A stretch of DNA of 64,000 bases from a virus, in IMG/VR virus record IMGVR_UViG_3300023179_006727, positions 37,735-101,734 of that record; one strand, 5' to 3'. This document shows positions 29,403 through 54,064 of the stretch, in pieces. Each line of letters begins with the position of its first letter. Position 1 is the first letter of the stretch. The translations under genes were made by a program, and so were the position numbers. The notes beneath the pieces are model-generated. The model was not told the origin of the DNA. It ran no database searches and saw only the letters and a program-made list of their open reading frames with translations.

Positions 29403-29407
29403 AAGTT

Positions 29408-30597: not shown

Positions 30598-30610
30598 GGA
30601 TTTAAGTACA

Positions 30611-32422: not shown

Positions 32423-32450
32423 TTTGACATATTACAGGAGATAAGAAAAA

Positions 32451-33730: not shown

Positions 33731-33731
33731 A

Positions 33732-33760
33732 TTGACATTTTTTCTAAAAAACGATATATA
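33732..33760 (+). promoter_or_regulatory. Sigma70-like promoter for the homing endonuclease
   Basis: TTGACA (33732-33737), a 17-bp spacer and TATATA (33755-33760) form a host-type promoter starting two bases after the left direct repeat. It would give the endonuclease its own early expression apart from the late capsid genes. No clear ribosome site follows. Confidence 0.6.
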
Positions 33761-33774
33761 CATCTTTAATTCAA

Positions 33775-35319
33775 ATGTTATTGGATCAAGATATGAAAGA
33801 TAAAATTGTAGAAATTGTTGAGAAATACTCCAAGCATTACGTTAGGATGATTAAAAACAGAGAAGAATTAATGACATGGGTAGTGACTCATAGCAAAGTT
33901 AGTAGTGATGATATTGGGTTACTAATTTATAGTGCATTAAATGATGTTAGTAATGTGTGTCCATATGGCAAGGAAAAAAAGTTTGGTGGACTTTCAGTAG
34001 GTTTGCGCAATTGCGGATCATCTAAAGTTTGCCAATGTACACGTGAGCAAGTATCAAAATCGGTAATTCAAACTAAAAAAACGATTACTGAAGAACAACA
34101 AAAAAAAATTAATATAAAAAGGGCAAAAACTAATTTAGAAAAATATGGTGTTGAAAATATTGGACAAACAAATTTGGCTAAATTAAAGCATCGTGAATTT
34201 TATTTGACCCATGAAAATAAGAAAAATACCATTGAGTCAAAAAGCGCAAAACAGATTGGATATGAAAAGTTTAAAGGTTATATAGATAAACAATACAATT
34301 TTAAACTTTTGACCACTTTAGAAGAATATCGGGGTATACGTCAAAAAGATGCCTATGAGTACTTATTTCAGTGTAACATTTGTAAAGATATAGTATCATA
34401 TCGATTCTATCATAAACGAGGTATTACTTGTGACAAATGTAATCCTAAAAAACCTTTATATACAAGTCATGAAGAACAATCGATTTTTGATTATATAACA
34501 CAGGATTTAAAAGTTAATGGTGTACAAAGTGACAAAAAGCTTATAAATCCGTATGAATTAGATATGGTATTTCATGAATATAAAATTGCTATTGAATATT
34601 GTGGATTATATTGGCATAGTGAATTAAGTTCAGGAAAGCATAGAAACTATCATAAAACCAAAATGGAATTAGTCAATGAGTTAGGATACAGATTAATTAC
34701 TATCTTTTCCGATGAATGGTTAAACAAAAAAGAAATTGTTAAGAAAAGATTACAGCATATTTTCAACAAAAGTACAAGTAAGCAGTATGCAAGAAATTTA
34801 AAGGTTGTTGAGATAACAAACACAGACGCAAAGTCCTTTTTAAATCAATATCACATTCAAGGTTATACGATTGCTCCAATAAAATTGGGATTAGTAGACA
34901 ATTATGGAAAATTATTTGCTTTGATGACGTTTTCAAAAGGTAGAGCATCATTAAATTCAAGTGATGAATACGAATTAGTACGCTATGTGACAAATGGGAC
35001 AGTTGTTGGGGGTGCAGGAAAGTTATTGAAATATTTTACGAAGCTTTACAATCCTAAAAAAATAGCTACTTATGCTGATTTACGTTGGAGTCAGGGTAAT
35101 TTATATAAGGTGTTAGGTTTTAATAGAGTTGGTGATGCAAAAGTTGGATATTGGTACGTTGAAAATTATAATAAAAGATTGCATCGATATAATTTTACTA
35201 AGCATAAGTTAGTTAGAATGGGAGCAAATTCATTACTTACAGAATGGAAAATAATGCAAAATTTAAATTATGACCGAATTTGGGATTGCGGTCATCAAAA
35301 ATTTGAATTAATATTATAA
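33775..35319 (+). CDS. Free-standing homing endonuclease, EDxHD (Vsr-like) type
   Basis: The protein has 514 residues. A Cys-rich zinc-ribbon-like segment (FQCNICKDIVSYRFYH, TCDKCNP) precedes a nuclease core PYELDMVFHEYKIAIEYCGL and YWHSELSSGKHRNYHKTKME followed by GYRLITIFSDEW. This is the pattern of I-Bth0305I-type EDxHD homing endonucleases, which are related to Vsr and often found free-standing in phages. The C-terminal 190 residues (YARNLKVVEITNTDAKSFLN onward) are also a recurring accessory domain in this group. It sits just past the capsid gene between two copies of a 77-bp repeat, so it looks like an inserted cassette that spreads by cutting the uninterrupted gene 23 terminal region. 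The frame is intact. Confidence 0.88.
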   Translation: MLLDQDMKDKIVEIVEKYSKHYVRMIKNREELMTWVVTHSKVSSDDIGLLIYSALNDVSNVCPYGKEKKFGGLSVGLRNCGSSKVCQCTREQVSKSVIQTKKTITEEQQKKINIKRAKTNLEKYGVENIGQTNLAKLKHREFYLTHENKKNTIESKSAKQIGYEKFKGYIDKQYNFKLLTTLEEYRGIRQKDAYEYLFQCNICKDIVSYRFYHKRGITCDKCNPKKPLYTSHEEQSIFDYITQDLKVNGVQSDKKLINPYELDMVFHEYKIAIEYCGLYWHSELSSGKHRNYHKTKMELVNELGYRLITIFSDEWLNKKEIVKKRLQHIFNKSTSKQYARNLKVVEITNTDAKSFLNQYHIQGYTIAPIKLGLVDNYGKLFALMTFSKGRASLNSSDEYELVRYVTNGTVVGGAGKLLKYFTKLYNPKKIATYADLRWSQGNLYKVLGFNRVGDAKVGYWYVENYNKRLHRYNFTKHKLVRMGANSLLTEWKIMQNLNYDRIWDCGHQKFELIL

Positions 35320-35357
35320 CGATTTGAAGTTTTTCAATTTATCATATGGATATATCA

Positions 35358-35434
35358 TTTCAGTAAAATCAGTTATTTACAAAATTTTTTGAAAATAACT
35401 TACCAACAAAAGGGGCACGAAAGTGCCCTTTTTT
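35358..35434 (+). repeat. 77-bp perfect direct repeat, right copy
   Basis: This is an exact copy of 33654-33730, including the gene 23 stop region and terminator, but here it follows the endonuclease gene and codes for nothing. It marks the right junction of the inserted cassette. Confidence 0.97.
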
Positions 35435-35435
35435 T
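35408..35435 (+). terminator. Duplicated intrinsic terminator after the homing endonuclease
   Basis: The hairpin is the same GGGCAC-gaaa-GTGCCC as at the capsid gene, here followed by seven T. It now terminates the endonuclease transcript. Confidence 0.9.
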
Positions 35436-35537
35436 AATTTTAGTATTTTAAGAATAAAATTTATTTCTAATTATTGAAACAGTTTATATTTAAAAATAAA
35501 TAAATAATTAGAGAATGTTAATATTTTGGGGATAAAA

Positions 35538-36131
35538 ATGGCAGAATGGGTATTAGTTGAAAATAATGAAATTATTGAATATCATGATAAATTGCCTAGG
35601 AATTGGAGAAATATTTCGGGATTACATCTGTCTATTAATGATACAGTTTTTTTAAAATCTTTAGGTTGGTTCAAGGTACAAAAAATTGCTTTGGATAATG
35701 GGCAAGTGGTATCTCATTATGATTATTCAATTTGTGATGATTATGTTTTAGAAACTCCTATTTATAAAATTTTTTCTGCAGAAGACAATTACAATATACA
35801 ACAGCATGATTTAAATCTTTTATTAGAATATGTTAGATCTGAACGTAATAAAAAATTGTTAGAATCAGATTATACACAATTAACAGATGTTATTGAAAAA
35901 CATACAGATAATGAAAAATTAGCATGGAAAACTTATAGACAAGCTTTACGTGATTTTCCTGCCACAGTACATATTGGAAATAATGTACAGAATTTGAATT
36001 GGCCTAATTTTGATAATATTCTTTTAGATTTAGAGATTAATGTTCAAAATGAGATTATTATTCAAGAAAGTATAGAAGAAAATATTCAAAATGCAGAAAA
36101 TAATCAAGAAAGTATAGAGTCTAGTATTTGA
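35538..36131 (+). CDS. Tail-fibre assembly chaperone-like protein
   Basis: I take the ATG at 35538 (197 residues), which follows a GGGGAT ribosome site; an in-frame TTG lies just upstream. Residues of about 95-150 read LLLEYVRSERNKKLLESDYT and WKTYRQALRDFPATV, the signature of the phage tail assembly chaperone family (Phage_tail_APC type), where R-ER..LL..SDW/Y-T and W..YRQALRD.P recur. The N-terminal half resembles the beta-rich part of such proteins. The C-terminus is a short repeat of QESIE and NIQNAEN. Such genes normally sit next to the fibre gene they assist, which here is the giant RCC1 gene starting 23 bp later. Confidence 0.78.
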   Translation: MAEWVLVENNEIIEYHDKLPRNWRNISGLHLSINDTVFLKSLGWFKVQKIALDNGQVVSHYDYSICDDYVLETPIYKIFSAEDNYNIQQHDLNLLLEYVRSERNKKLLESDYTQLTDVIEKHTDNEKLAWKTYRQALRDFPATVHIGNNVQNLNWPNFDNILLDLEINVQNEIIIQESIEENIQNAENNQESIESSI

Positions 36132-36142
36132 AAAAAAATGAG

Positions 36143-36150
36143 TATAAATA
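36143..36150 (+). promoter_or_regulatory. TATAAATA late box four bases before the giant RCC1 gene
   Basis: A perfect TATAAATA lies between the chaperone-like gene and the RCC1 ATG at 36155. The four-base gap leaves no room for a ribosome site after a normal late start. Confidence 0.45.
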
Positions 36151-36154
36151 CTAA

Positions 36155-39100
36155 ATGTTATTAGCTACCTTAATACAAACAGGAACATATTTTCCTCCTG
36201 CCCCAGGTAAGCTCTTATACCTTTGGGGCAATAACACTTATGGACAATTAGGTGATGGTACTACAGTAAGTAAATCATCACCTGTTTTAGTTCCTACTTC
36301 ATCATGGAAACAAGTATCGGTTAATAGATTTTACACCGCTGCTATTCGTTCTGATAATTTATTGTTTGCTTGGGGTAGAAATAATTATGGACAGTTAGGA
36401 GATGGCACAACAGTAAACAAGTCATCACCTGTACAAATTGGTTCTTCACAATGGAAATCAGTTTCGGTTGCTACATCTAATACTACTGCGATTGATAATA
36501 ATAATAATTTGTTTATATGGGGAGCAGGTGTATCTGTAGGTGATAATTATTTTTTAATCCCTTATAAAATAAAGCAACCATCGGGTTCAACATATATTGA
36601 TTCTAGTTGGACAATGGTTAGTGTTGGTCCTTCCCATACTGCTGCTATTCGTTCTGATGGAATATTATTTACGTGGGGGTTCAATAACAATGGACAATTA
36701 GGTGACGGAACTACGGTAACTCGAACTTACCCAACTCAAATTGGCAATTTAAGTTGGAACATGGTAAGTGCAGGTGGATTACCTTCTAATAGCACTGAGT
36801 ACACATTAGGTATAACAAGTAATGGGTTACTTTATTCTTGGGGATATGGTGGTAATGGTGCTACAGCAGATGGTGATTTTTATAATCCAAATGTTATCAA
36901 ATTTCAAGTGGGAACAAGCTATATAGATTATAGTTGGACAGCCTTATCTTCAAGGGGTTCTAATTTTGTTCTTGCAGTTAGAAATGATGGACTGTTATTT
37001 TCTTGGGGCAGAAATCAATATGGTCAATTAGGTGATGGTACTACTGTTAATAAATCTACTCCTGTTCAAATTGGTAGTAGTAGTTGGATAGCTGTATCAA
37101 CAGGATCTCTACATGCCTTAGCTATACGCAGTGGTGGAACATTATTTTCTTGGGGCAGAAATAATTATGGACAGTTAGGAGATAGTACTACTGTTAATAA
37201 ATCATCACCTGTACAGATTGGTAGTAGTAGTTGGACAACTATTAGTGCATATGGTACTGTTAGTACAGGTATTAGTAACAATAATCTTTTTGTATGGGGA
37301 TTTAACGGCACGGGGTTTCGTTTGGGTTTAGGTGATGGCACAACAACAAATAGATCATCCCCCGTTCAAATCGGAGATCCTGCGATAAGTTGGCAAACTG
37401 CAGTTGCAGGTGGATATCAATCAGCGACATTGAATTCTACCAATCTATTATATACATGGGGTAGAAATAATCGAGGTCAATTAGGTAGCGGCTCTACAGT
37501 TAATAGATCATCCCTTGTACAAGTTGGTGGTAGTAGTTGGACAGCTTTAAGTATGGGCATGAGTCATACTGTAGGTATTCGTTCAGATGGAATATTATTT
37601 GCTTGGGGATTAAATAATTTTGGACAATTAGGAGATGGTACTGGAATTAGTAGATCTTCCCCTGTACAAATTGGTAGTAGTAGTTGGATTGCTGTACGTG
37701 CAGGATCATATCACACTGTTGCAATAAGAAGTGGTGGAACATTATTTACTTGGGGTAGCAATTTTTTATCACAATTGGGAGACGGAAATTCACAAGGTAC
37801 GACTGTGATCTCGCCCGTACAAATTGGTAGCAGTAGTTGGACAGCGATAGCTGCAGGTTCAACTTTTAGTGCAGGTATATCGGATGGATTATTATATGCA
37901 TGGGGATATAATTCAAACGGACAAATTGCAGTAAGTGGTTCAACCCAAATATATAATTGGATAAGTACTAGTTCGGGTACTGATATGCATGCTGCGATTC
38001 GTAGTGATGGTTATTTATTTGCATGGGGTTTAAATTCATATGGTCGATTAGGTGATGGCACGACTATTAATAAATCATCACCTGTACAAATTGGTAGTAG
38101 TAGTTGGATTGCAGTTAGTGTGGGACAAAACTTTACTTCTGCAATACAAAGTGGTGGTACATTATTTACATGGGGGAGAAATACTTTTGGGCAATTAGGT
38201 GATGGTACTACAGTCGATAAATCATCACCTGTACAAATTGGTAGCAGTAGTTGGACAAGCGTTGCAGCAGGTGGTAGTCATGTTGTTGCAATTCGTTCTG
38301 ATGGTTTATTATTTGCTTGGGGTAACAATAATTTAGGACGATTGGGTGATGGTACTACTGTTAATAAATCATCTCCCGTACAAATTGGTAGTAGTAGTTG
38401 GACTGCGGTATCAGGCGGAAGAAATCATACAATTGCTATTAGAAGCGGCGGAACATTGTTCGGATGGGGGGATGGAACTTTTGGACAATTAGGATACGGA
38501 TCTACACTTAGGTTAGAACCAGGTCTTCTTAGTTACCCGCAAGACACAGCAAGTTGGACAAGCGTTGCATCAGGTGCTAGTCATGTTGTTGCAATTCGTT
38601 CTGATGGTTTATTATTTGCTTGGGGTAACAATAATTATGGACAATTAGGTGATGGCACAAATATAACCCGTAGTGTTCCAACACAAATCGGCAATGATAG
38701 TTGGACTGTAATCGGGGCGGGTCGAAGAATATCAGCAGGAATTAATAGTAACGGTATAGTATATACGTGGGGATATAATACTAACGGTGAGTTAGGAAGT
38801 GGTGATACAACAAGTAGGAACGCTCCTGGAACACTTGCGTCAGGATTTAATAGTAGATCCGCAACAAGATTAGGAGTCGGAGCTAATCATATGATGGCAT
38901 ACTTTCCTACACTAGGTGATGTTTACGGTTGGGGAGTTGGCTTTAATGGGCAATTGGGAACAGGAAGTAGTGGCATTACCTATCGCCTATCAACACCTAC
39001 GCTCTTAGGTTTAGGTGGGGGTGAACCCCAAAAAATTTCATTAGGTGATCGTTTCTCATTAGTTTTAATTAGTAATGGTACTTTATTTGGAACAGGTTTA

Positions 39101-41896
39101 AATACTTATGGACAAATGAGTTCAGGAAATACAACGCAGCGAAATGTTTGGGCATCTATAGGCACGTCAATAGTATATAACGATATAGCAGCAGGTAAGG
39201 GGCATGCATTAGGTATAAGATCAACAGGTCAATTATTTGCATGGGGGAGAAATGATTTTGGGCAATTAGGTGATGGTACTACTATTAATAGACTTTCAAT
39301 GGTTTCAATTGGAGCAAGTAGTTGGTCAGCAGTTGGATCAGGTATTTATGCTAATACTTCATTAGCTATCAGAAGTGGAGGAACATTATTTAGTTGGGGA
39401 TTAAATTCATGGGGTCAATTAGGTGATGGTACTCAAATTAGTAAATCATCACCCGTACAAATTGGTAGCAGTAGTTGGATAGCAGTATCTGCGGGCGGTT
39501 TAAATTCTGTAGCTATACGAAGTGGTGGTACATTATTTACTTGGGGTTCAAATTCATATAGTCAATTAGGTACCAATTTGTCCCAAGTTTCTCCTGTGCA
39601 AGTAGGAAGTAGTAGTTGGACAGCGATAGCTGCAGGTTCAAATTTTAGTCTTGGAATAACAAATAATAATGCACTTTATGCATGGGGAAGAAATAATAAA
39701 AGTCAATTAGGCGTAGGTATTGTTCCCCTTACCGAACAATATACTCCTTTACAAGTAGGATTAGGTAATAGTTGGACAGCGATAGCAGCAGGTAATTATT
39801 TTAGTGCAGGTATAGATACTAATGGGTATTTGTACATGTGGGGTCAAGGAAATTACGGACAGTTAGGTTTAGGTAATCCTCCTATAAGTATATCTGTCAA
39901 CCAAAGAGTTATTACGCAAGTAAAATTAGGTTTAAATAATATTTTTTCTTCAGTACAATGTGGTGGCTATGGCACCTCTGCAATAGATAGCAATAATAAA
40001 TTATATGTATGGGGTAATGGCGGCAATGGTGCGAACGGTCAAAATTTAAATAATATACGCATAATTTTTAGACCATTACAAATTGGTGGTTCAAGCACTT
40101 TGCTTGGTGCAACATTTAATTCACCAACCTTAATAAATTCTTCTTCGTGGACTGCCTTATCAAGTAGCTCTGATTTTGTAGTAGGTATTAGTAGTGATAA
40201 TAAATTATTTACTTGGGGCAATAATTCGTATGGACAATTAGGCAATAATACTAAAGCTATACAATGGACAAATGTAGGGCCAAGCGCATTTCTAAAAAAT
40301 GGTTTATTATATGCATGGGGAGCAAATACTTACGGTCAATTAGGTGATGGTACTACAGTAAATAAATCTTCACCCGTACAAATTGGTAGCAGTAGTTGGA
40401 CTGCGGTAGCATTGTCTGCAGTTAATACCCAAATTTTAAATAATCGGTTTGCATTACAAACATTTGCAATACGAAGTGATGGATTATTATTTGCATGGGG
40501 ATTAAATAATTTTGGGCAATTAGGTGATGGTACGACTGTTAATAAATCATCACCGGTTCAAATTGGTAGTTCCTCATGGTCTGTAGTAGCAGGTGGCATG
40601 TACCACACTGTTGGTATTACTATTAATAATAAGTTATTTACATGGGGAAGAAATAATTATGGACAACTAGGGGATGGTACTACGGTTAATAAATCTTCCC
40701 CTGTGCAAATTGGTAGTAATGATTGGGGAATAGTTTCTGCAGGCCGTGGACTTTCTCATGCTATACGATCTGATAATCTTTTGTTTGGATGGGGAGGCAA
40801 TAATACTACTGCGGGATTCATAGGTGATAACACAACGATAAGTAGATCCTCACCTGTGCAAATTGGTAGCAGTAGTTGGACAACAGTTTCGTCTTCATCC
40901 TATGGAGCTAGTGCTATACGAAGTGGTGGTACATTATTTACATGGGGTTTAAATTCATATGGTCAATTAGGTGATGGTACTACTGTTAATAAATCTTCGC
41001 CCGTACAAGTTGATAGTAGTAGTTGGGTTGCAGTAAGTAGTGGTTGGCAACACTGTTTAGGAATTAAAGCTGGTACTAATGTTGCGGTTGGAGTATTGCT
41101 TGCTTGGGGCAGAAATCAATATGGTCAATTAGGTGATGGTACTACAGTAAATAAATCTACTCCTGTTCAAATTGGTAGTACAACAGAAGTCGATGCTCCA
41201 ACTTATACTAGTTGGATTATGATTTCAGCTAGGAGTGACAACTCATCTGGATTAAAACAAAATAATGTATTATATTTTTGGGGAAAAAATAATATTTCTC
41301 AAGTAGGGGATGGTACTACTATTAATAGACTAAATCCTTTTTTAATTCCTTATGTAAATCAAGAATTACAATCTTCATTCTTACAAAGTTTTAGTGGATC
41401 TCCTGTACAAATTGGTAATAGTAGTTGGACAGCAGTCAGTGCAGGCAACGCACATGTTGGTGCAATACGAAATGATAATTTGCTTTTTTCATGGGGATTA
41501 AATAATTTTGGGCAATTAGGTGATGGCACTACAGTAAATAAATCTTCACCCGTACAAATTGGTAGCAGTAGTTGGGCTACAATATCGGCAGGTTACAGAC
41601 ATACTGTAGCCACAACAAACAATGGCGCTTTATTTTCTTGGGGATTAAATAATTTCGGGCAATTAGGCGATGGTACTACTGTTAATAAATCATCACCTGT
41701 CTTTATTGCAGGAACTTATCAATCAAGTCTTAGATCTTGGAAATTTGTAAATACAGGTCAAGATTCTACTCTTGCTATTGATAATACCGATAAATTATAT
41801 GCTTGGGATTTGGTGTACCTAATGCAACAACGGGAATGCCGCAATTTACTGCATCAACAATTGATACAAGCAATCCATATCCTATTCGAACACTGA
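36155..41896 (+). CDS. Giant RCC1-repeat protein, N-terminal part (frame ends early)
   Basis: The protein has 1,913 residues built from RCC1-type beta-propeller blades about 50 residues long. A typical blade reads LFTWGLNSYGQLGDGTT and KSSPVQIGSSSWTAVSAG, then AIRSGGT or AIRSDGL. There is no signal peptide or membrane segment. The first 1,883 codons are regular repeats; the last 30 residues (DLVYLMQQRECRNLLHQQ) do not fit, because the RCC1 pattern moves to the -1 frame at 41806. The natural product is probably one protein continuing in the next entry. Position after a tail-fibre chaperone suggests a fibre or other virion surface protein, an inference. RCC1 propellers are protein- and ligand-binding scaffolds in other systems. 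Confidence 0.85.
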   Translation: MLLATLIQTGTYFPPAPGKLLYLWGNNTYGQLGDGTTVSKSSPVLVPTSSWKQVSVNRFYTAAIRSDNLLFAWGRNNYGQLGDGTTVNKSSPVQIGSSQWKSVSVATSNTTAIDNNNNLFIWGAGVSVGDNYFLIPYKIKQPSGSTYIDSSWTMVSVGPSHTAAIRSDGILFTWGFNNNGQLGDGTTVTRTYPTQIGNLSWNMVSAGGLPSNSTEYTLGITSNGLLYSWGYGGNGATADGDFYNPNVIKFQVGTSYIDYSWTALSSRGSNFVLAVRNDGLLFSWGRNQYGQLGDGTTVNKSTPVQIGSSSWIAVSTGSLHALAIRSGGTLFSWGRNNYGQLGDSTTVNKSSPVQIGSSSWTTISAYGTVSTGISNNNLFVWGFNGTGFRLGLGDGTTTNRSSPVQIGDPAISWQTAVAGGYQSATLNSTNLLYTWGRNNRGQLGSGSTVNRSSLVQVGGSSWTALSMGMSHTVGIRSDGILFAWGLNNFGQLGDGTGISRSSPVQIGSSSWIAVRAGSYHTVAIRSGGTLFTWGSNFLSQLGDGNSQGTTVISPVQIGSSSWTAIAAGSTFSAGISDGLLYAWGYNSNGQIAVSGSTQIYNWISTSSGTDMHAAIRSDGYLFAWGLNSYGRLGDGTTINKSSPVQIGSSSWIAVSVGQNFTSAIQSGGTLFTWGRNTFGQLGDGTTVDKSSPVQIGSSSWTSVAAGGSHVVAIRSDGLLFAWGNNNLGRLGDGTTVNKSSPVQIGSSSWTAVSGGRNHTIAIRSGGTLFGWGDGTFGQLGYGSTLRLEPGLLSYPQDTASWTSVASGASHVVAIRSDGLLFAWGNNNYGQLGDGTNITRSVPTQIGNDSWTVIGAGRRISAGINSNGIVYTWGYNTNGELGSGDTTSRNAPGTLASGFNSRSATRLGVGANHMMAYFPTLGDVYGWGVGFNGQLGTGSSGITYRLSTPTLLGLGGGEPQKISLGDRFSLVLISNGTLFGTGLNTYGQMSSGNTTQRNVWASIGTSIVYNDIAAGKGHALGIRSTGQLFAWGRNDFGQLGDGTTINRLSMVSIGASSWSAVGSGIYANTSLAIRSGGTLFSWGLNSWGQLGDGTQISKSSPVQIGSSSWIAVSAGGLNSVAIRSGGTLFTWGSNSYSQLGTNLSQVSPVQVGSSSWTAIAAGSNFSLGITNNNALYAWGRNNKSQLGVGIVPLTEQYTPLQVGLGNSWTAIAAGNYFSAGIDTNGYLYMWGQGNYGQLGLGNPPISISVNQRVITQVKLGLNNIFSSVQCGGYGTSAIDSNNKLYVWGNGGNGANGQNLNNIRIIFRPLQIGGSSTLLGATFNSPTLINSSSWTALSSSSDFVVGISSDNKLFTWGNNSYGQLGNNTKAIQWTNVGPSAFLKNGLLYAWGANTYGQLGDGTTVNKSSPVQIGSSSWTAVALSAVNTQILNNRFALQTFAIRSDGLLFAWGLNNFGQLGDGTTVNKSSPVQIGSSSWSVVAGGMYHTVGITINNKLFTWGRNNYGQLGDGTTVNKSSPVQIGSNDWGIVSAGRGLSHAIRSDNLLFGWGGNNTTAGFIGDNTTISRSSPVQIGSSSWTTVSSSSYGASAIRSGGTLFTWGLNSYGQLGDGTTVNKSSPVQVDSSSWVAVSSGWQHCLGIKAGTNVAVGVLLAWGRNQYGQLGDGTTVNKSTPVQIGSTTEVDAPTYTSWIMISARSDNSSGLKQNNVLYFWGKNNISQVGDGTTINRLNPFLIPYVNQELQSSFLQSFSGSPVQIGNSSWTAVSAGNAHVGAIRNDNLLFSWGLNNFGQLGDGTTVNKSSPVQIGSSSWATISAGYRHTVATTNNGALFSWGLNNFGQLGDGTTVNKSSPVFIAGTYQSSLRSWKFVNTGQDSTLAIDNTDKLYAWDLVYLMQQRECRNLLHQQLIQAIHILFEH

Positions 41897-44800
41897 AAAT
41901 AAAAACTGCACTTAATCCTGCTGCCTTTCCTGATTATCAATGGATTGCAGCCTCAACTTGCGGAAATATGAGTTTTGGAATACGAAATGATGGTATTTTA
42001 TTCGCATGGGGATATTCAAATAATGGTGGTTCAGGATCGCTTACAAATAAATTTGTAAATCCACCATCACCTATACTTGTACAAGGTAGCACTTTTAGCC
42101 AATTTGTTGCTGTAACTTCAGGCGATCAGCACAGTGCTGCAATTCGTAGTGGTGGTACATTATTTACTTGGGGATTAAATTCATTCGGTCAATTAGGTGA
42201 TAGTACTACAGTAAGTAAATCTTCGCCCGTACAAATTGGTAGCAGTAGTTGGACTGCAGTTTGTGCGGGATCTCAAGGATTTATTCTAGCTCTTAGATCA
42301 GATAATTTACTTTTTTCATGGGGTCGTAATCAATATGGACAATTAGGTGATGGTACTACAATTAACAAATCTTCACCTGTACAAATCGGTAGTAGTAGTT
42401 GGATTGCTATATCAGGTGGTAATGGTTTTGTTGCTGCTATTCGTTCGGGTGGTACATTATTTTCTTGGGGAAGAAATCAAAGTGGACAATTAGGTGATAG
42501 CACTACAGTTAATAAATCATCACCTGTACAAATTGGTAATAGTAGTTGGATAGCTGTATCAGCAGGAGATCAACACGTAGCTGCAATTCGTAGTGGTGGT
42601 ACATTATTTACTTGGGGATTAAATTCATTTGGTCAATTAGGTGATAGTACTACAGTTAATAAATCATCACCTGTACAAATTGGTAGCAGTAGTTGGAGTA
42701 TTTTACCTGCAGGTTTACAAAATTCAACTATGGCATTAGATCCTACAGGAACACTTTATACATGGGGCAATAATTCCAATGGACAATTAGGCGATGGCAC
42801 GTCAATCAATAAATCATCTCCTGTACAAATCGGTGGTTCGACTAAGTTTTCATATATTGCGATGGGGTTACAGACATTACCTGCATGTTTTGGGATAGCT
42901 TCAAATGGGACAATGTATTCATGGGGTGGGGATTCCACTTACCCAGGGATTGCAATCGGTAGGCCTGGGGCGTTGATTCCTGTACAAGTTGGCGCAGGGG
43001 GAATTAATGCTCAAAGTATTACATTTCAAAATTTAAATTGGTCTACCGCATCAATAGTCCAACCTGCCTCTGAAAATAAAGGTCAAGCTGCAGCAATAAC
43101 AACCAATGGTACATTATATGTGTGGGGTATTAATAATTATGGTCAATTAGGTAATGGGAATACAGTAAGACAGATTTTTCCACAACAATTGGATTCAAAT
43201 TCTTGGACTATGGTAAGTGTAGGCCAATACCATATGCTTGGCCTACTCCCCAACGACACATTATTTGCATGGGGTAGAAATCAATATGGTCAATTAGGAG
43301 ATGGTACCACAATAAATCGTTCTTCACCTGTACAGCTTGGTGGTATTACTAGATTTAATAATGGTAGTTGGACTTTAATTAATGCAGGACAACAATTAAG
43401 CGCAGGTATTGGAAAATCAAATTCATACTTGTTTACATGGGGATCAAGTAATTTAGGTCAACTAGGACGATCAATGGGTGGTTCAGCACCTTTTCAAATT
43501 GGTACATCATCATGGACAGCAGTTTCTACAGAATTTAATCAATTTGCTGCCGCAATAAAATCTGATGGATCTTTATTCACTTGGGGACAAAATTCAAGCG
43601 GACAACTTGGAGACGGCACCACAGTTAATAAATCATCACCTGTGCAAATTGGTAGTAGTAGTTGGACAGTAGCTAGTGTAGGAGGTTCGCACACTGTAGC
43701 TATACGAAGTGGTGGTACATTATTTACTTGGGGATTAAATTCAAGTGGTCAATTAGGTGATGGTACGACTGTTAATAAATCATCACCTGTTCAAATTGGA
43801 TCATCATCATGGATTGCAATTTCAGGAGGTGGATTACATTCTGCTGCAATTGATATTAATAGTTTGTTATTTACTTGGGGATTAAATTCAAGCGGACAAC
43901 TTGGAGATGGAACCACTGTTAATAAATCATCCCCCGTACAAATTGGTAGTAGTAGTTGGACAGCAGTATCTGCGGGTCCTTCTAATTCTGTAGCTATACG
44001 AAGTGGTGGTACATTATTTACTTGGGGATTAAATAGCGTAGGTCAATTAGGTGATGGTACGACTGATAATAAATCATCGCCCGTACAAATTGGCAGTAGT
44101 AGTTGGACAGCAGTTAATGCGGGTTGGGTAATAATAGATGCTATAAGAAGTGGTGGTACATTATTCACTTGGGGATCAAATTCATTTTTTATTGGAAGCA
44201 GTCGCCCCCCAGGCGGCCTCTACCCATACCAACTTGGTTATGATTCATGGGCAGCATTATCTACTACAATATCAAATTCAAGTGCCGTTCGTTCTGATGG
44301 AATATTGTTTACTTGGGGAAATAATGCATCAGGACAAATAGGAGATGGCACCACCATACAAAGAGGTAGTCCTGTACAAATTGGTAGTAGTAGTTGGACT
44401 ATTGTCAGCGTAAATCCGTCTGTTACAAGTGCGGTAAGATCTGACGGTTTATTATACGCATGGGGATCAAATACGTTTGGTGAACTTGCTGATGGCTCTT
44501 TTATCAGTAATTTTTCACCACAACTTGTTGGTTCGTCGCAACCATTTAGTTGGATTTCAATTACGGGTTGGGTAAAAGGTCATCGTGCAGCCATACGTTC
44601 AGATGGAATTTTGTTTACATGGGGAAGAAATACTCAAGGACAGTTAGGAAATGGTACAACAATCACCACTTCAAGACCTTCGCCTTTAGTATTTCCATAT
44701 AATAAAAGTCAATGGACTGCTGTAGCTGTAAGCAATTATCATTCATTAGCAATACGTAGTGATGGTTATTTATTTGCATGGGGAGCAGGTTTGTTTGGCA

Positions 44801-47800
44801 GCTTAGGTGATGGTACTACAATTAGTAAATCATCACCCGTACAAATTGGTAGCAGTAGTTGGGCTGTAGTAAGTGCAGGTGGTGCCCCATTTTCGGCAGC
44901 TATACGTAGTGGCGGCACATTGTTTACTTGGGGATTAAATTCCAATGGACAATTAGGCGATGGCACGACTATTAATAAATCATCACCTGTACAAATTGGC
45001 AGTAATAGTTGGGTTGCAGTAAGTGGTGGAAGTAACTTTATTGCTGCAATACAAAGTGGAGGTACATTATTTACATCGGGAAGAAATACTTACGGTCAAT
45101 TAGGTGATAGTACTACAGTTAATAAATCTTCCCCTGTACAAATTGGTAGCAGTAGTTGGATAGCGGTAAACGCAGGTAATTCACACACTGTAGCTATACG
45201 AAGTGGAGGTACATTATTTACATGGGGAAGAAATAATTATGGACAACTAGGGGATGGTACTACGGTTAATAAATCTTCCCCTGTACAAATTGGTAGCAGT
45301 AGTTGGATTGCAGTTGCAGCAGTTCTTGGAGGTGAAATTGGAAATGTAGGAGCAAGTTTGGGAATTACAGCGGATAATAGTTTATATACGTGGGGATCAC
45401 CAAATAATAGCCATACAGTATCTATTGCAACAAGTCCCGCAGGTTTTACAGGAGATGCTGATTGGATAAATATTAATCCTATAAAATTTGTATCTAATTC
45501 TGTATATTTTGATAATCAAAGTTGGACAAGCGTTTCATCAGGTAATAGCCATACAGTAGCTATTCGTTCCGATAATATATTATTTGCATGGGGTAAAAAT
45601 CAATATGGTCAATTAGGTGATGGTACTACTTCAGATAAATCATTGCCACAGCAAATAGGAAGTAGTAGTTGGATTGCAGTTAGTGCAGGATATAATTTTA
45701 CAAAAGCATTACTAAGTAATAGTAAATTATATACTTGGGGCAGAAATAATGTAGGACAATTGGGTGATGGTACTACAGTTAATAAATCATCTCCCGTACA
45801 AATTGGTGGTAGTAGTAGTTGGAATATAATTAGTGCGGGAAATAGTTTTTCTGCTGCGATTGATTCTGATCAATATTTGTATACATGGGGTATAAATAAT
45901 TTAGGACAATTAGGGAATAATACAACATGCAACCTCGCTATCCCAAACTTAATTCAAACCCCTACTTCATATAGTTGGACGATGATAGCAGCAGGATTAA
46001 GTCATACTGCTGCTATTCGTTCAGATGGTATATTATTTACGTGGGGCGGCAATTCAAGCGGACAAATAGGTGATGGAACTACGATTAATAGGAGCCCTGG
46101 GGTGTTCCAAGTTGGTAGTAGTAGTTGGACAGCAGTCAGTGTAAGTGATGGTGATACATATGCTATACGCAGTGATGGTCGGATTTTTGGATGGGGAAGC
46201 ATTGCTGCAGGACAGTTAGGTGATGCAGTAACAACTGTTTTGGGTTGGAATGCTTTACAAATTGGCGGTGCACAGGGACTTGGACAGGATGTTAATAATA
46301 ATATATATACTTGGGGATTGCTGGGACCACTTAATGGACCAGCATCGACCGCATCACGCTCATCACCCGTAGCAATTGGATTTTCCGCAGCTCAGGTTGA
46401 TCTAGGCGGCTTTGATTCGGCTCGTGCTTTTGCATTAGCAATCACTACTACAGGCTTATTATATGCATGGGGAAATAATGCTTATGGTCAATTAGGAGAT
46501 GGTACTATAATTAGTAGATCTTCCCCTGTACAAATTGGTAGTAGTAGTTGGACAGCAGTAAACGCAAATGCATTCAATACAGCCGCTGCGACACCGAACT
46601 CATGGTCTTTAGCAATTAGAAGTGGTGGCACATTATTTGCTTGGGGTAGAAATGCTTATGGTCAATTAGGAGATGGCACCACCGCACAAAGACTTAGTCC
46701 TGTACAAATTGGTAGTAGTAGTTGGATTGCAATTAGTGCAGGAGGGGTGCACACTGTAGCTATACGAAGCGGAGGTACATTATTTTCTTGGGGAAGAAAT
46801 CAAAATGGACAATTAGGTGATAGCACTACAGTTAATAAATCATCTCCCGTACAAATTGGTAGTAGTAGTTGGACTGCTGTTTCAGCAGGAGGTTCTCAAA
46901 ACTTAGCAATACGTAGTGATGGTTTATTATATGCATGGGGTAGAAATAATTTAGGACAATTAGGTGACGGTACTACAGTTGATAAATCTTCGCCCGTACA
47001 AATTGGTAGCAGTAGTTGGAAATTAGTATCTTCATCGGATAGTAATGGTGGAGGAATTACAATCAATGACAATTTATTTATGTGGGGAAATAATGCATCA
47101 GGACAAATAGGTGATGGTACTACAGTAAGTAAATCTTCGCCCGTACAAATTGGCGTTCCTGTACTTCCTACAGGTTATTCTTTAGGCGCAAAAGTATTAG
47201 CAGGTTCCAACTTTAGTGGAATGGTTATTAATAATAATTTATTTACATGGGGTAGAAATAATAATAGTCAATTAGGTGACGGTACTACTGTTGATAAATC
47301 AACACCTGTACAAATTAATTCCTCAGGAAGTAGTATTAATGGATCTGTGTTGAATGCTTCATTGGGTGAAAATAGTAGTTTAGCAATACGTACTGATGGA
47401 ATATTATTTGCTTGGGGAATAAATTCAAGTGGACAGTTAGGTGATGGCACTACTGTAAATAAATCTACTCCTGTACAAATTGGTAATAGTAGTTGGATTG
47501 TAGTAAGTGCAGGATTTAATAATAATGCTGCAATTCGTAGTGGAGGAACATTATTTACTTGGGGAAGTAATAGTGCAGGAGAATTAGGTGATGGTACTAC
47601 TAATAATAAATCATCTCCTGTACAAATTGGTAGTGATAGTTGGACAATGGTTTCTACAAATAATGGAAGCTCGTTAGCAATTAGATCAGATGGTTTATTA
47701 TTTACATGGGGAAATAATAGTTATGGTCAATTAGGAGATGGTACAACTGTAAATAAATCATCTCCTGTACAAATTGGTAGTAGTAGTTGGACTGCTATTA

Positions 47801-50800
47801 AAGGTGGTTATTCATCATTTGCTATTCGAACTGATGGAATATTATTTGCTTGGGGGAGAAATAATTTTGGGCAATTAGGTGACGGTACTACTGTAAATAA
47901 ATCACAACCTGTGCAAATTGGTAGTAGCAGTTGGGCTGCATTATCAATTACTGCACCATCAGATACTATGGGTGCAATTCGTAGTGGTGGAACGTTATTT
48001 ACATGGGGTAGAAATCAATATGGTCAATTAGGTGATGGTACTACTGTTAATAAATCATCTCCTGTACAAATCGGTAGTAGTAATTGGACAATGTTGGCAA
48101 TGGGTAAACTTGGTCAAACATTTGCGAATACAAGTGATGGTACATTATATGTATGGGGAGCAGGTTCTTTCGGCCAACTTGGGATTAATGACACTACAAA
48201 TCGTTCCTCTCCAACTCAATTTACAATGGGGGTTTGGTCTCAGTTATGGGTTACTACTAGTGGTACAACAGCTATATTAAGTTCTTGGGCTACTTATTAT
48301 AATAAAAGAGCCTATGTGTGGGGAGTAAATAGTTTAACCTTTGGCGGCAGGTTAGGTTTAAATGATACAATAAATAGATCATCTCCGAGTTTACTTGGAG
48401 GACAACCTGTAAGCTCTAATCAATCAAGTCCTGTACAAGTAGCATCCAATAGTTGGAATGCGGTAGACGCAGGTTCATCTCATGTTATGGCATTGAATTC
48501 TGCAAATATATTATTTACTTGGGGATTAAATTCTAGTGGTCAATTAGGTGATGGTACAACCATTAATAGATCATCACCTGTACAAATTGGCTCATCATCA
48601 TGGATTGCAATTTCAGGAGGTGGGTTACATTCTTCTGCAATTAATAGTAACAGTTTGTTATTTACTTGGGGAAATAATTCAAGTGGTCAATTGGGTGATG
48701 GCACGACTGTTAATAAATCATCACCTGTTCAAATTGGTAGCAGTAGTTGGTCAGCAGTATCAAGTGGTGGAACACACACTGTAGCTATACGAAGTGGAGG
48801 TACATTATTTACATGGGGATTAAATAGCGTAGGTCAACTAGGTGATGGTACTACGGTTAATAAATCTTCCCCTGTACAAATCGGCAGTAATAGTTGGGTT
48901 GCAGTAAGTGCGGGGTTAGCTAGTTCTGCAGCTATAGAAAATGGTACTAACTTTTTATATACATGGGGAAATAATTCCAATAGTCAATTAGGTGACGGTA
49001 CTACTGTTAATAAATCATCACCTGTTCAAATTGGTAGCAGTAGTTGGTCAATGATTAGTGTGGGTGGTAGTCATATGGCAGGTATTGTTACCACAGCTTC
49101 TGCGCTTACATGGGGTAGTAATACTCAAGGACAATTAGGAAGAAATGAGTATGAAATTTTACCATTAAAAATTGGAACAAGTAATTGGACAACGGTTAGC
49201 ACTAGTGCAGGAGGTAGTCACACTGTTGCAATACGAAGTGGTGGTACATTATTTACATGGGGAGTTAATGCACAAGGTCAATTAGGTGATGGTACTACTA
49301 TTAATAAATCTTCTCCTGTGCAAATTGGCAGTAGTAGTTGGGCAGCGATAGCAGCAGGAACAAACCATACACTTGCGATAAGAAATGGTGGTACATTATT
49401 TTCATGGGGGCTTAATGATTTTGGTCAATTAGGCGACTTAACTAAGGTTTGGAAATCATCACCTGTACAAATTGGCAGTAATAGTTGGGTTGCAGTTGTC
49501 GCAGGGCAAGTCCATTCTATGGCTCTTTCTAATGAACAAAAATTGTTTTCATGGGGTGGAAATTTTGCGGGTCAATTATCGAATGATAGTTTAACACCAA
49601 AATCATCTCCTGTTCAAATTGGTTCATCATCATTTACAATAATTTCTGCAGGATTACAATTTAATGCAGCGATAGCAAGTGGTGGAACGTTATTTACTTG
49701 GGGATCTTTCAATGTAAATTTCCCTAGTAGTCCTACTACTACTGAGCCTATATGGTTAGGCAGACCAATGGGTGGAGGGTTACCTTACAGAATACAACAA
49801 AATCAAAATTGGACGATATTAGGTCGTACAGGGGCAATAACATCAAATGGTACAATTTATACATGGGGCGTGGATAATGTTATAAGTGGTGCTGGTGCTC
49901 CTGTTTCTTGGTCTTATAGTTATCAAAACGTATCACCAATACCTACCGCAAGGGTAAATACTTTAAACACTGTAAAATCGTGGACTAATATTAGTTTAGG
50001 GTATAGTTATGTTACTGCTATTGATAGTAATAATTTATTATATACTTGGGGTCAACCTACTAATTCAATAGGACAAACTGCGGACGGTGATTACTTAAAT
50101 CCTGTACCTATAAAATTTTATCAACCACTTACATTGGATCAATACCCAACTTATTTAACACATAGTTGGGTAATGGTCTCGGCAACAGGGCTTAGAGGAA
50201 ACACAAATCTTCATACTTTAGCAATAAGATCAGATGGTTTATTATTTGCTTGGGGAAAAAATGATCAAGGACAATTAGGTGATGGCACTACCATTGAACG
50301 TACATTACCTACACAAATTGGTAGTAGTAGTTGGACAATAGTTACTGCAGGATATCGTTTATCATTAGCTATCAGAAGTGATGGTATATTATTTAATTGG
50401 GGAACAGCAATACAATCCTCACCTGTGCAGGTAGGTTCAAGTGCTTGGTCAGCAGTTAGTGCAGGAACTAATAGCCAATGGTGGCAAGCAATTCGTGCAG
50501 ATGGTTTATTATTTGCGCAAGGAAATAATGTTAGTGGACAATTGGGTGATGGTACTACTACAACTAGAAATTCTCCCGTACAAATTGGTAGTAGTAGTTG
50601 GGTTGCGGTTTCTACAGGTTATACGCATACTGTAGCTATACGAAGTGGAGGTGCATTATTTACATGGGGAGGTAATGCAAATGGTCAATTAGGGGATGGC
50701 ACTACAGTAAGTAAATCTTCGCCCGTACAAATTGGTAGTAGTAGTTGGGTAGCAATATCTGCTAGTTATAGAACATCAGGTGCTATTAGAGATGGTGGTA

Positions 50801-51340
50801 CATTATTTACTTGGGGATTAAATTCATTTGGTCAATTAGGAGATGGTACAACTGTAAATAAATCATCTCCTGTACAAATTGGTAGTAGTAGTTGGACTGC
50901 AATTGGGATCGCAGTTACTTCGAGTTTCGCTATAAAATCCAATGGATTATTATTTGCTTGGGGTGAAAATATAACCGGTAATCTTGGAGATGGTACAACT
51001 ATTAATAGGTCATCGCCCGTACAAATTGGATCATTGTCTTGGATAATGGTAACAGGAAATCGTTGGGCACAATTCGGAATAACTTCAAATAACTTGCTTT
51101 ATAGTTGGAACTCCGATTCCAATTCGGGATTCCGTTTTAATGCTCGTCCTTTTGGAGGATTAGTGCCATATCAAATTGGTTTTAGTAATTGGTCAGGAGT
51201 GAGTGCGGGTACTTCGCATGCGGTAGGTTTGACTGCAGGCAATGCATTATTTACTTGGGGATTAAATTCAAGTGGGCAACTTGGAGATGGTACAACTATT
51301 AATAGGTCATCGCCCGTACAAATTTCAGGAACTTGGGCTG
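36200..51340 (+). repeat. Long array of RCC1-coding DNA repeats
   Basis: Roughly 100 units of about 150 bp are repeated with many near-identical stretches, for example CAAATTGGTAGTAGTAGTTG and GGTCAATTAGGTGATGG variants. The copies differ in order and spacing. Identity at synonymous sites implies recent duplication or ongoing recombination between units. Confidence 0.9.
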
Positions 51341-51381
51341 GACCTAAAGCAGGGTCTGTCAATAGTGCTTCGTTACAATAA
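41803..51381 (+). CDS. Giant RCC1-repeat protein, continuation in -1 frame
   Basis: This frame has 3,192 codons from a TTG at 41803, almost entirely RCC1 blades, ending SGTWAGPKAGSVNSASLQ. It overlaps the previous entry by 94 bp. It has no ribosome site or ATG of its own at the point where the repeat pattern takes over, and its first residues (GFGVPNATTG) continue the blade broken at YAW in the other frame. The equivalent repeats elsewhere read TGGGGATT, but at 41804 the sequence is TGGGATT, one G short. With that G the two frames join into about 5,075 codons. Ribosomal -1 slippage at the site is possible but no classic slippery heptamer is present. Length alone makes this by far the largest gene in the window. 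Confidence 0.82.
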   Translation: MGFGVPNATTGMPQFTASTIDTSNPYPIRTLKIKTALNPAAFPDYQWIAASTCGNMSFGIRNDGILFAWGYSNNGGSGSLTNKFVNPPSPILVQGSTFSQFVAVTSGDQHSAAIRSGGTLFTWGLNSFGQLGDSTTVSKSSPVQIGSSSWTAVCAGSQGFILALRSDNLLFSWGRNQYGQLGDGTTINKSSPVQIGSSSWIAISGGNGFVAAIRSGGTLFSWGRNQSGQLGDSTTVNKSSPVQIGNSSWIAVSAGDQHVAAIRSGGTLFTWGLNSFGQLGDSTTVNKSSPVQIGSSSWSILPAGLQNSTMALDPTGTLYTWGNNSNGQLGDGTSINKSSPVQIGGSTKFSYIAMGLQTLPACFGIASNGTMYSWGGDSTYPGIAIGRPGALIPVQVGAGGINAQSITFQNLNWSTASIVQPASENKGQAAAITTNGTLYVWGINNYGQLGNGNTVRQIFPQQLDSNSWTMVSVGQYHMLGLLPNDTLFAWGRNQYGQLGDGTTINRSSPVQLGGITRFNNGSWTLINAGQQLSAGIGKSNSYLFTWGSSNLGQLGRSMGGSAPFQIGTSSWTAVSTEFNQFAAAIKSDGSLFTWGQNSSGQLGDGTTVNKSSPVQIGSSSWTVASVGGSHTVAIRSGGTLFTWGLNSSGQLGDGTTVNKSSPVQIGSSSWIAISGGGLHSAAIDINSLLFTWGLNSSGQLGDGTTVNKSSPVQIGSSSWTAVSAGPSNSVAIRSGGTLFTWGLNSVGQLGDGTTDNKSSPVQIGSSSWTAVNAGWVIIDAIRSGGTLFTWGSNSFFIGSSRPPGGLYPYQLGYDSWAALSTTISNSSAVRSDGILFTWGNNASGQIGDGTTIQRGSPVQIGSSSWTIVSVNPSVTSAVRSDGLLYAWGSNTFGELADGSFISNFSPQLVGSSQPFSWISITGWVKGHRAAIRSDGILFTWGRNTQGQLGNGTTITTSRPSPLVFPYNKSQWTAVAVSNYHSLAIRSDGYLFAWGAGLFGSLGDGTTISKSSPVQIGSSSWAVVSAGGAPFSAAIRSGGTLFTWGLNSNGQLGDGTTINKSSPVQIGSNSWVAVSGGSNFIAAIQSGGTLFTSGRNTYGQLGDSTTVNKSSPVQIGSSSWIAVNAGNSHTVAIRSGGTLFTWGRNNYGQLGDGTTVNKSSPVQIGSSSWIAVAAVLGGEIGNVGASLGITADNSLYTWGSPNNSHTVSIATSPAGFTGDADWININPIKFVSNSVYFDNQSWTSVSSGNSHTVAIRSDNILFAWGKNQYGQLGDGTTSDKSLPQQIGSSSWIAVSAGYNFTKALLSNSKLYTWGRNNVGQLGDGTTVNKSSPVQIGGSSSWNIISAGNSFSAAIDSDQYLYTWGINNLGQLGNNTTCNLAIPNLIQTPTSYSWTMIAAGLSHTAAIRSDGILFTWGGNSSGQIGDGTTINRSPGVFQVGSSSWTAVSVSDGDTYAIRSDGRIFGWGSIAAGQLGDAVTTVLGWNALQIGGAQGLGQDVNNNIYTWGLLGPLNGPASTASRSSPVAIGFSAAQVDLGGFDSARAFALAITTTGLLYAWGNNAYGQLGDGTIISRSSPVQIGSSSWTAVNANAFNTAAATPNSWSLAIRSGGTLFAWGRNAYGQLGDGTTAQRLSPVQIGSSSWIAISAGGVHTVAIRSGGTLFSWGRNQNGQLGDSTTVNKSSPVQIGSSSWTAVSAGGSQNLAIRSDGLLYAWGRNNLGQLGDGTTVDKSSPVQIGSSSWKLVSSSDSNGGGITINDNLFMWGNNASGQIGDGTTVSKSSPVQIGVPVLPTGYSLGAKVLAGSNFSGMVINNNLFTWGRNNNSQLGDGTTVDKSTPVQINSSGSSINGSVLNASLGENSSLAIRTDGILFAWGINSSGQLGDGTTVNKSTPVQIGNSSWIVVSAGFNNNAAIRSGGTLFTWGSNSAGELGDGTTNNKSSPVQIGSDSWTMVSTNNGSSLAIRSDGLLFTWGNNSYGQLGDGTTVNKSSPVQIGSSSWTAIKGGYSSFAIRTDGILFAWGRNNFGQLGDGTTVNKSQPVQIGSSSWAALSITAPSDTMGAIRSGGTLFTWGRNQYGQLGDGTTVNKSSPVQIGSSNWTMLAMGKLGQTFANTSDGTLYVWGAGSFGQLGINDTTNRSSPTQFTMGVWSQLWVTTSGTTAILSSWATYYNKRAYVWGVNSLTFGGRLGLNDTINRSSPSLLGGQPVSSNQSSPVQVASNSWNAVDAGSSHVMALNSANILFTWGLNSSGQLGDGTTINRSSPVQIGSSSWIAISGGGLHSSAINSNSLLFTWGNNSSGQLGDGTTVNKSSPVQIGSSSWSAVSSGGTHTVAIRSGGTLFTWGLNSVGQLGDGTTVNKSSPVQIGSNSWVAVSAGLASSAAIENGTNFLYTWGNNSNSQLGDGTTVNKSSPVQIGSSSWSMISVGGSHMAGIVTTASALTWGSNTQGQLGRNEYEILPLKIGTSNWTTVSTSAGGSHTVAIRSGGTLFTWGVNAQGQLGDGTTINKSSPVQIGSSSWAAIAAGTNHTLAIRNGGTLFSWGLNDFGQLGDLTKVWKSSPVQIGSNSWVAVVAGQVHSMALSNEQKLFSWGGNFAGQLSNDSLTPKSSPVQIGSSSFTIISAGLQFNAAIASGGTLFTWGSFNVNFPSSPTTTEPIWLGRPMGGGLPYRIQQNQNWTILGRTGAITSNGTIYTWGVDNVISGAGAPVSWSYSYQNVSPIPTARVNTLNTVKSWTNISLGYSYVTAIDSNNLLYTWGQPTNSIGQTADGDYLNPVPIKFYQPLTLDQYPTYLTHSWVMVSATGLRGNTNLHTLAIRSDGLLFAWGKNDQGQLGDGTTIERTLPTQIGSSSWTIVTAGYRLSLAIRSDGILFNWGTAIQSSPVQVGSSAWSAVSAGTNSQWWQAIRADGLLFAQGNNVSGQLGDGTTTTRNSPVQIGSSSWVAVSTGYTHTVAIRSGGALFTWGGNANGQLGDGTTVSKSSPVQIGSSSWVAISASYRTSGAIRDGGTLFTWGLNSFGQLGDGTTVNKSSPVQIGSSSWTAIGIAVTSSFAIKSNGLLFAWGENITGNLGDGTTINRSSPVQIGSLSWIMVTGNRWAQFGITSNNLLYSWNSDSNSGFRFNARPFGGLVPYQIGFSNWSGVSAGTSHAVGLTAGNALFTWGLNSSGQLGDGTTINRSSPVQISGTWAGPKAGSVNSASLQ

Positions 51382-51443: not shown

Positions 51444-52481
51444 ATGCATAAAATTGATCAACAACTTAATTTAATGATTCGTGGGAGGTTTCAAGAAGGA
51501 TGGGAATTAAGCCAACAAATGCACGAAGAACATCCTAATGATTTACGACATTTATTTAATCGTGGTTGGTTTTTAATAAATCAAGGAGATTTACAGGGTG
51601 GGTTTCAATGTTTAGAATCAGGTAGACATTTAAACGTATATGGAAGCGGTAGATTACCAACAAAAAAACCAATTTGGAATCCTGAAAAAGATTCAATTGA
51701 AGGTAAAACTATCATTTTAAATATGGAATGTGGGTTTGGTGATCAGATAATTTATGCTAGATTTGCTTCTGAAATAGCTAAAAGAGGTGGTAAATGTTTA
51801 TTATCATCTGATGTTAGATTACATTCAATTTTTTCTCGTATCCCAGGCGTTGAAAAATGTATCACTATTAAAGATGTTCCTAATGTTTTTCATGATTTTT
51901 GGATCCCAGGCTTTAGCTCAAGTTGGCTTTTTGGTCACACATTTGAAACCTTACCAAACGATCCATATATTTTTGCCAATCCTGCTAGCGTAGAAATTTG
52001 GAAAAATTTAATTAAATCTGATAAACCTAAAGTTGGTATACGGTGGTCAGGTAGTCCATTGTTTGAACACCAACAATTTAGGGTATTTCCACCTGAGCCA
52101 CTTATAGATTTACATAAATATAATGATGTACAATTTTATAGTTTACAACGAGATACAGATTTAAGAGAATTACCTGAAGAAATAAGTGATTTGCAACATA
52201 TTATTATATCATGGGAAGATACTGCTGCTGCTATTGAAAATCTTGATTTAGTAATAACATCCTGCACCAGTATAGCACACTTATCTGCTGCTATGGGCAA
52301 GCCAACATGGGTAATTGTTCCATTATTACCATATCATGTATGGGCTTATGGAGGTGAACATTCTCCATGGTATCCTAAGACAACAAGAGTTTTTAGACAA
52401 AAAGTTTTTGGAAATTGGAATGAAACTTTTGAAAATCTTGAAAATGAATTTGTAAAGTTTTTTTCTTTAACAAAAAAATAA
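51444..52481 (+). CDS. TPR-containing glycosyltransferase (GT9/GT41-like)
   Basis: The 345-residue protein has a TPR-like N-terminus (FQEGWELSQQMHEEHPND, HLFNRGWFLINQGDLQGGF) and then a GT-B glycosyltransferase body with MECGFGDQIIYARFASEIAK, VGIRWSGSPLFEHQQFRVF, LDLVITSCTSIAHLSAAMGK and SPWYPKTTRVFRQ. The pattern fits glycosyltransferases related to the GT9 heptosyltransferases and GT41 OGT-like enzymes; SIAHLSAAMGKPTWV is a typical nucleotide-sugar-binding end. Substrate and acceptor cannot be read from sequence. It directly follows the RCC1 gene and opens the glycan island, so it may glycosylate the giant surface protein or a lipopolysaccharide. Confidence 0.83.
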   Translation: MHKIDQQLNLMIRGRFQEGWELSQQMHEEHPNDLRHLFNRGWFLINQGDLQGGFQCLESGRHLNVYGSGRLPTKKPIWNPEKDSIEGKTIILNMECGFGDQIIYARFASEIAKRGGKCLLSSDVRLHSIFSRIPGVEKCITIKDVPNVFHDFWIPGFSSSWLFGHTFETLPNDPYIFANPASVEIWKNLIKSDKPKVGIRWSGSPLFEHQQFRVFPPEPLIDLHKYNDVQFYSLQRDTDLRELPEEISDLQHIIISWEDTAAAIENLDLVITSCTSIAHLSAAMGKPTWVIVPLLPYHVWAYGGEHSPWYPKTTRVFRQKVFGNWNETFENLENEFVKFFSLTKK

Positions 52482-53389: not shown

Positions 53390-53390
53390 A

Positions 53391-54053: not shown

Positions 54054-54064
54054 ACGGAGAAAAA

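Follow-up and report, generated by a model that had tools for sequence, protein, structure and literature searches.

RCC1 proteins are already known from phages, and so is their presence in virions. W70_237-239, members of phrog_4219, were found to be virion proteins by mass spectrometry (PMC11370258), and GAP32 gp1, also an RCC1 protein, was likewise found in virions (PMC5259590). In the closest described systems, the Asteriusvirus, Eneladusvirus and RaK2-group jumbo phages and W70, phrog_4219-type RCC1 propellers occur as tandem copies, with one gene of ~380 aa per propeller (121Q gp234-248, BF, GAP32 gp1, W70_237-239). Synechococcus phages BUCT-ZZ01 and S-SRM01 carry their RCC1 genes in a tail fibre locus, as single ORFs of two propellers (BUCT-ZZ01, a 701-aa gene) and one propeller (S-SRM01), with a TPR/glycosyltransferase-like gene downstream and, in BUCT-ZZ01, a chaperone gene. 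RCC1 propellers also occur in the tail fibre genes of the Pollyceevirus phages PollyC and SeaP, although there a single, distantly related propeller is fused to a T7-like N-terminal domain (a match below the Pfam cut-off); in PollyC and SeaP2, RCC1 stands in tail-fibre position behind this weak T7 tail-fibre N-terminal domain. The cellular UVR8, RCC1 and HERC2 RLD propellers have the same fold and blade motif, but as single domains of signalling proteins. In T-even phages (gp37/gp38) the adhesin gene is separate, follows the fibre gene and comes with an assembly helper, an arrangement that works like the cassette described below although the fold differs.

Here we describe a stretch of 64,000 nucleotides (the window), bases 37,735-101,734 of a 101,734-bp viral contig, in which about 14 propellers are fused in two polypeptides; the chaperone gene and the TPR/glycosyltransferase-like gene that adjoin them further distinguish the locus from the RCC1 genes of 121Q, BF, GAP32 and W70. 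Nearby genes are T4-like structural genes, among them those for the baseplate wedge and hub, portal, protease and major capsid protein. Among cultured phages, the capsid protein is nearest (65-66% identity) to those of the jumbo myoviruses Vibrio phage 2.275.O, PA5oct, Erwinia SNUABM phages and Serratia phage BF, that is, to the phage group with tandem RCC1 genes. Metagenomic contigs with capsid proteins 87-89% identical to that of the window reach 223-303 kb, which makes it probable that the 101-kb contig covers only part of a jumbo genome. A cyanophage host assignment was rejected, as a search for psbA found the gene neither in the window phage nor in another 25 contigs with RCC1. Two other large ORFs lie at the edges of the window. 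Positions 3-3524 on the minus strand hold the N-terminal part of a second giant ORF (6,306 aa, contig 22338-41258), whose only match in the window part is to virion structural phrog_10938, with one weak Pfam match elsewhere; an ORF of at least 1,233 aa at 60300-63998 runs off the contig end and has no Pfam or PHROG matches.

The RCC1 array and its division into two genes

Positions 36155-51381 are filled by RCC1 blades. A custom blade HMM counted 98 of them in the joined frame of 5,075 residues, mostly 49 residues apart, and a profile search returned 79 RCC1_2 matches at E<=1e-3, the same search giving none in 14 control genomes. The first ORF alone scored 1085 bits with Pfam WD40_RLD and 943 bits with RCC1. 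The repeats, ~50 residues long with conserved WG and GQLG motifs, score above the Pfam cut-offs (PF00415, PF13540, PF25390), as is characteristic of RCC1-like propellers, and no domain other than RCC1 blades was recognisable in the 5,075 residues. The original prediction had located an RCC1 array at just these coordinates, which the Pfam, RCC1_2 and blade counts bear out, and its estimate of roughly a dozen propellers was about right (98 = 14 x 7). It had also taken the array for a single gene of 5,075 codons; instead, there are two ORFs in different frames, at 36155-41896 (1,913 aa) and 41803-51381 (3,192 aa in the longest frame). The features of the locus are as follows.

35408-35433, plus strand: intrinsic-terminator-like hairpin (11 pairs, T tail) in the gap between a homing endonuclease gene and the cassette (pattern scan, consensus match only)
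35526-36131, plus strand: tail fibre assembly chaperone, 201 aa (Phage_tail_APC, PF16778; Pfam 1.1e-14, over the cut-off; PHROG match; conserved adjacency)
36155-41896, plus strand: RCC1 protein A, 1,913 aa (ORF, Pfam, blade HMM, PHROG 4219 at E=8e-177)
41804-41809, plus strand: TGGGAT at the junction, a -1 shift between the two blade frames (motif comparison)
41836-51381, plus strand: RCC1 protein B, 3,181 aa from the ATG at 41836 (ORF, start, junctions of relatives, PHROG matches)
51444-52481, plus strand: TPR/glycosyltransferase-like protein, 345 aa (conserved just 3' of RCC1 genes)
52595-59591, plus strand: probable glycan or surface modification genes (profile matches, partly parallel to a cluster in S-SRM01)

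Protein A consists of a 17-residue leader, a C-D half blade and ~36 blades, with its last ~29 codons off the blade frame. Protein B has ~61 blades and an A-B half blade at its end, and matches PHROG 7220 (E=2.6e-275) and PHROG 4219 (E=3.1e-263); both window ORFs match phrog_4219, 7220 and 16766 in the PHROG profile search. The frame of protein B is open from 41803, and its most likely start is the ATG at 41836 (MPQFTAST...), which lies at the same point of a blade as the second-gene start in relatives. Whereas the 95 other W-G motifs of the array all read TGGGGN, the junction motif TGGGAT is one G short of a continuous frame; the first ORF slips frame 32 bases before the ATG and continues 60 bases beyond it.

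The same point is marked in the giant relatives by two kinds of junction. In a capsid relative of 127 kb (G007) and in L273, L275, L276 and L277, the first gene ends in ...LYAWGQDxSGQLG(F/L) and TAA, and the next codon is the ATG of MPxxSPVxLGNxLPxN; in G001/G002, L299, L301 and L152 the genes overlap in ATGA or TTGA, again after GQ(L/I)GD. Because the giant relatives are likewise divided into two ORFs at this loop of a blade, an error alone does not explain the two-gene layout: the two-cistron arrangement is probably ancestral, and the one-base slip of the window, whose junction sequence had no match in other viral contigs, is probably a later change or error. A fixed propeller position for the split was considered and dropped, the blades before it numbering ~37, 40 and 92.

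That the array's length or its split is an assembly artefact, or the mark of a decaying gene, seems to us very improbable. The frame shift at the junction would fit such an explanation, as would one near-identical pair of contigs that differ by 552 bases in the RCC1 gene. However, no exact repeat within the array is longer than 72 bases, a length that short reads cover, so that repeat collapse by the assembler is no obvious problem, and the 15 kb contain no stop other than at the ORF junction. Moreover, L273, a 220,867-bp contig from a second metagenome, repeats the G007 array and its TAA/ATG junction without a single base difference over the 3 kb compared, and similar giants are present in several other contigs.

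Strand counting leaves protein A with one C strand extra and protein B one C strand short, so the two proteins may share a blade, which suggests that they complete it in common. Extending this, protein A (strands A-B-C) and protein B (strand D) could form a noncovalent continuous chain, 14 to 26 or more propellers long, a Ser/Thr-rich adhesin filament modified by the downstream TPR/glycosyltransferase-like enzyme, with the split blade conserved in at least nine contigs through the two kinds of start/stop overlap. We put this forward tentatively and as a whole, conserved split blade and glycosylated chain together.

A cassette shared with tail fibre loci

A scan of viral contigs for RCC1 gave 67 loci. 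The chaperone gene that the original prediction had seen before the array proved to be a regular partner of phage RCC1 genes: in 33 of 43 distinct phage loci PF16778 precedes RCC1 by no more than 150 bases, mostly by 0-11, at least two more loci have it downstream, and it was found at none of 80 bacterial RCC1 loci. It is directly upstream of RCC1 in the window phage, G007, G002 and BUCT-ZZ01, and was not found in the other contigs with related capsid proteins, all of which lack RCC1. The chaperone sequence used alone as a query did not find relatives.

Of nine proteins tested that relatives encode upstream of the chaperone, eight are tail fibre proteins or long-tail-fibre distal subunits, and the ninth is a virion structural protein; tail fibre genes are annotated upstream in BUCT-ZZ01 and S-SRM01 too. 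In the window, this place is taken by a homing endonuclease gene (33775-35319, between the major capsid gene and the cassette) and then the capsid gene, with no tail fibre gene directly before the cassette and none identified on the 101,734-bp contig, which counts against an adhesin.

On the other side of the array, relatives of the 345-aa gene directly follow RCC1 in 32 of 40 loci, and none was found after bacterial RCC1 genes. Since the TPR and Glyco_transf_9 matches of this family are weak, we name its product only as a candidate glycosyltransferase. A glycosyltransferase homologue in RCC1-less relatives, considered as a trace of a replaced adhesin, lies on the opposite strand and gave no clue. 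The genes at 52595-59591 encode a sulfotransferase, a 2OG-Fe(II) oxygenase, methyltransferases, an aminotransferase and a nucleotide-sugar epimerase. This resemblance of adjoining genes to surface-modifying enzymes would suit an intracellular or secreted infection factor, made late and absent from the virion, that serves as a scaffold, a decoy or a block to superinfection. We consider such a role improbable, given that members of the same PHROG are virion proteins and that no signal peptide is evident by eye.

PHROGs 4219, 7220 and 16766 bear the name 'regulator of chromosome condensation' and are classed with DNA metabolism. With members in virions and in tail fibre loci, they are probably misfiled, and the label of chromosome condensation or Ran exchange factor, which reaches the window genes by fold only, has no support.

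Propeller units and predicted fold

Complete phage RCC1 ORFs have lengths near multiples of ~351-360 aa (seven blades) and mostly hold 1-7 propellers; ORFs of 361, 705, 1,055, 1,429, 1,774, 2,118 and 2,455 aa, for example, have ~8, 15, 22, 28, 35, 43 and 50 blade matches. The strength of this length period (R=0.72) exceeds the largest of 2,000 null values (0.60), and after reduction to 35 non-redundant clusters it (R=0.70) was not reached by any of 5,000 null values. Some members depart from whole propellers (6.4, 5.3 and 3.7), and the 552-base difference noted above, between the near-identical contigs L164 and L167 (98.9%), is no multiple of seven blades, so that gains and losses of single blades, or assembly problems, also occur. 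Neither blade scores nor blade similarity gave a convincing seven-blade (lag 7) autocorrelation inside the window array, which counts against the adhesin chain proposed below; the evidence for a seven-blade unit is therefore the gene lengths of relatives. An alignment of divergent blades, tried as a scanning query, was discarded as degenerate and too poorly conserved.

The largest relatives exceed the window. In G007 the two RCC1 ORFs encode 1,981 and 4,525 aa, and in G002 they encode 4,821 and 5,123 aa, a total of 9,944 aa or ~26 propellers. Inserts of ~220-240 residues stand between blades, five in G007 and three in G002, and the three tested from these contigs were all Laminin_G_3 lectin-like domains. 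Seven Laminin_G_3 domains also occur in a separate 1,873-aa protein of G002 (L113, 1554-7172), which is encoded three genes ahead of the chaperone. In L281, L282, L284 and L290, tandem single-propeller RCC1 genes of seven blades each share an N-terminal GVQYSGIW-type stretch, and a TPR/glycosyltransferase-like gene lies between them. The search of phage contigs proposed with the original prediction thus found homologues in related phages, and their absence can therefore no longer be held against it.

Most complete RCC1 proteins of the set start with a C-D half blade, behind either a short leader (often MLLxExLLxK) or a 75-residue N-terminal domain matching phrog_11610, and end with strands A-B. 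The window protein has the same ends, with the leader MLLATLIQTGTYFPPAPG, then LLYLWGNN..., and the terminus GTWAGPKAGSVNSASLQ. A C-D start and an A-B end are what would be expected of self-closing propellers, and they support this arrangement. Across the 1,326 blades compared, variation is greatest at positions 9, 10, 26, 28, 29 and 20; by the strand assignment of an AlphaFold model, five of these six fall in the A-B and C-D loops, which should lie on one face because the blade is antiparallel.

That model, of residues 18-715 of the joined frame (two propellers), reached pLDDT 84 and pTM 0.53 with 94 alignment slices cut every seven blades, a procedure that presupposes the seven-blade unit. 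It matches UVR8, RCC1 and RCC2, the seven-blade match to RCC2 being 2.5 A over 353 columns for a model of pTM 0.53 built on slices of seven. Structure prediction, which had been suggested as a check, thus agrees with the expected blades, while the modest pTM and the slicing limit what it says of whole propellers. PollyC and Littlefix tail fibre proteins were among the matches returned by a BFVD search. An alignment with 19 relatives gave only a poor model (pLDDT 57) for the first 1,080 residues, of which the fold match alone was kept.

A proposed virion-borne chain of propellers

We start from what the sequence itself shows: an array of blades divided between two genes, gene lengths that go up in units of seven blades, a protein start at strands C-D and an end at A-B, and neighbours that are conserved. 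The product is most likely a modular virion component of extraordinary length that binds cell surfaces, rather than a chromosome-condensing protein. In its specific form, a virion-borne adhesin of ~14 closed seven-bladed RCC1 propellers, made as two coupled polypeptides and associated with the tail fibres through the PF16778 chaperone, this is the reading we favour and judge somewhat probable. The chaperone and fibre-gene context, the LamG inserts, the quantised lengths, the virion members of phrog_4219 and the AlphaFold propeller match support it; for the window proteins themselves, we infer receptor binding and virion location.

The chaperone, encoded just before the RCC1 genes, would help to place the chain at or beside the long tail fibres. 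Blades would close in runs of seven, the first C-D hairpin of a run pairing with a later A-B hairpin, and proteins A (ending A-B-C) and B (starting at strand D) would join by completing the same blade between them. The A-B and C-D loops, with the most variable positions, could present many weak binding sites, most likely for a host surface glycan, and the repeats would give avidity, reach and fast change through the gain or loss of propellers. The original prediction had proposed a very long surface or receptor-binding fibre. The fibre genes upstream in most relatives and the virion proteins of the same PHROG (PMC11370258) favour that claim in part; the window RCC1 product has no trimeric shaft or fibre signature, and the nearest picture would be a propeller chain attached to or near a fibre, not a fibre in the usual sense. 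No N-terminal virion-docking domain was recognisable in the window protein, which also speaks against the adhesin reading.

A virion protein need not sit at the fibre tip. Instead, the chains might be hairs that stand on the tail sheath, the collar or the capsid and entangle the phage with cells or particles, and the nearest cultured capsid relatives belong to the RaK2/121Q group of jumbo phages, some of which have tail hairs and many RCC1 genes (PMC7247149). This decoration or whisker role is weakened because phage CBB is hairy yet lacks the GAP32 RCC1 protein (PMC5259590), and the cassette couples RCC1 with a tail fibre chaperone; we regard it as unlikely.

The product is also basic (pI 9.4), which would suit nucleic acid binding and counts against an adhesin, as does the DNA-packaging role suspected by the phAPEC6 and W70 authors (PMC7247149, PMC11370258). 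Eukaryotic RCC1, moreover, binds nucleosomes. An internal, DNA-associated virion protein that orders or packs the genome would, however, leave unexplained the cassette with chaperone and fibre genes, the inserted lectin domains, the hypervariable loop positions and an enormous copy variation unrelated to DNA packing, and we think it rather less likely than the whisker role.

Taken with the preferred reading of a virion-borne adhesin, the evidence moves a large phage RCC1 family from its filing under DNA metabolism and chromosome condensation to the tail and adsorption apparatus. In a limited literature search, we found no description of the giant chain, growth by whole propellers, the cassette of chaperone and TPR/glycosyltransferase-like genes, or the conserved split blade. 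With a total of ~5,100-9,900 residues, gained in whole propellers, such a phage adhesin would be a direct test case for the number of binding-domain copies that one virus can link, for an influence of chain length on host range or avidity, and for the use of a split propeller blade as the joint between two giant proteins.
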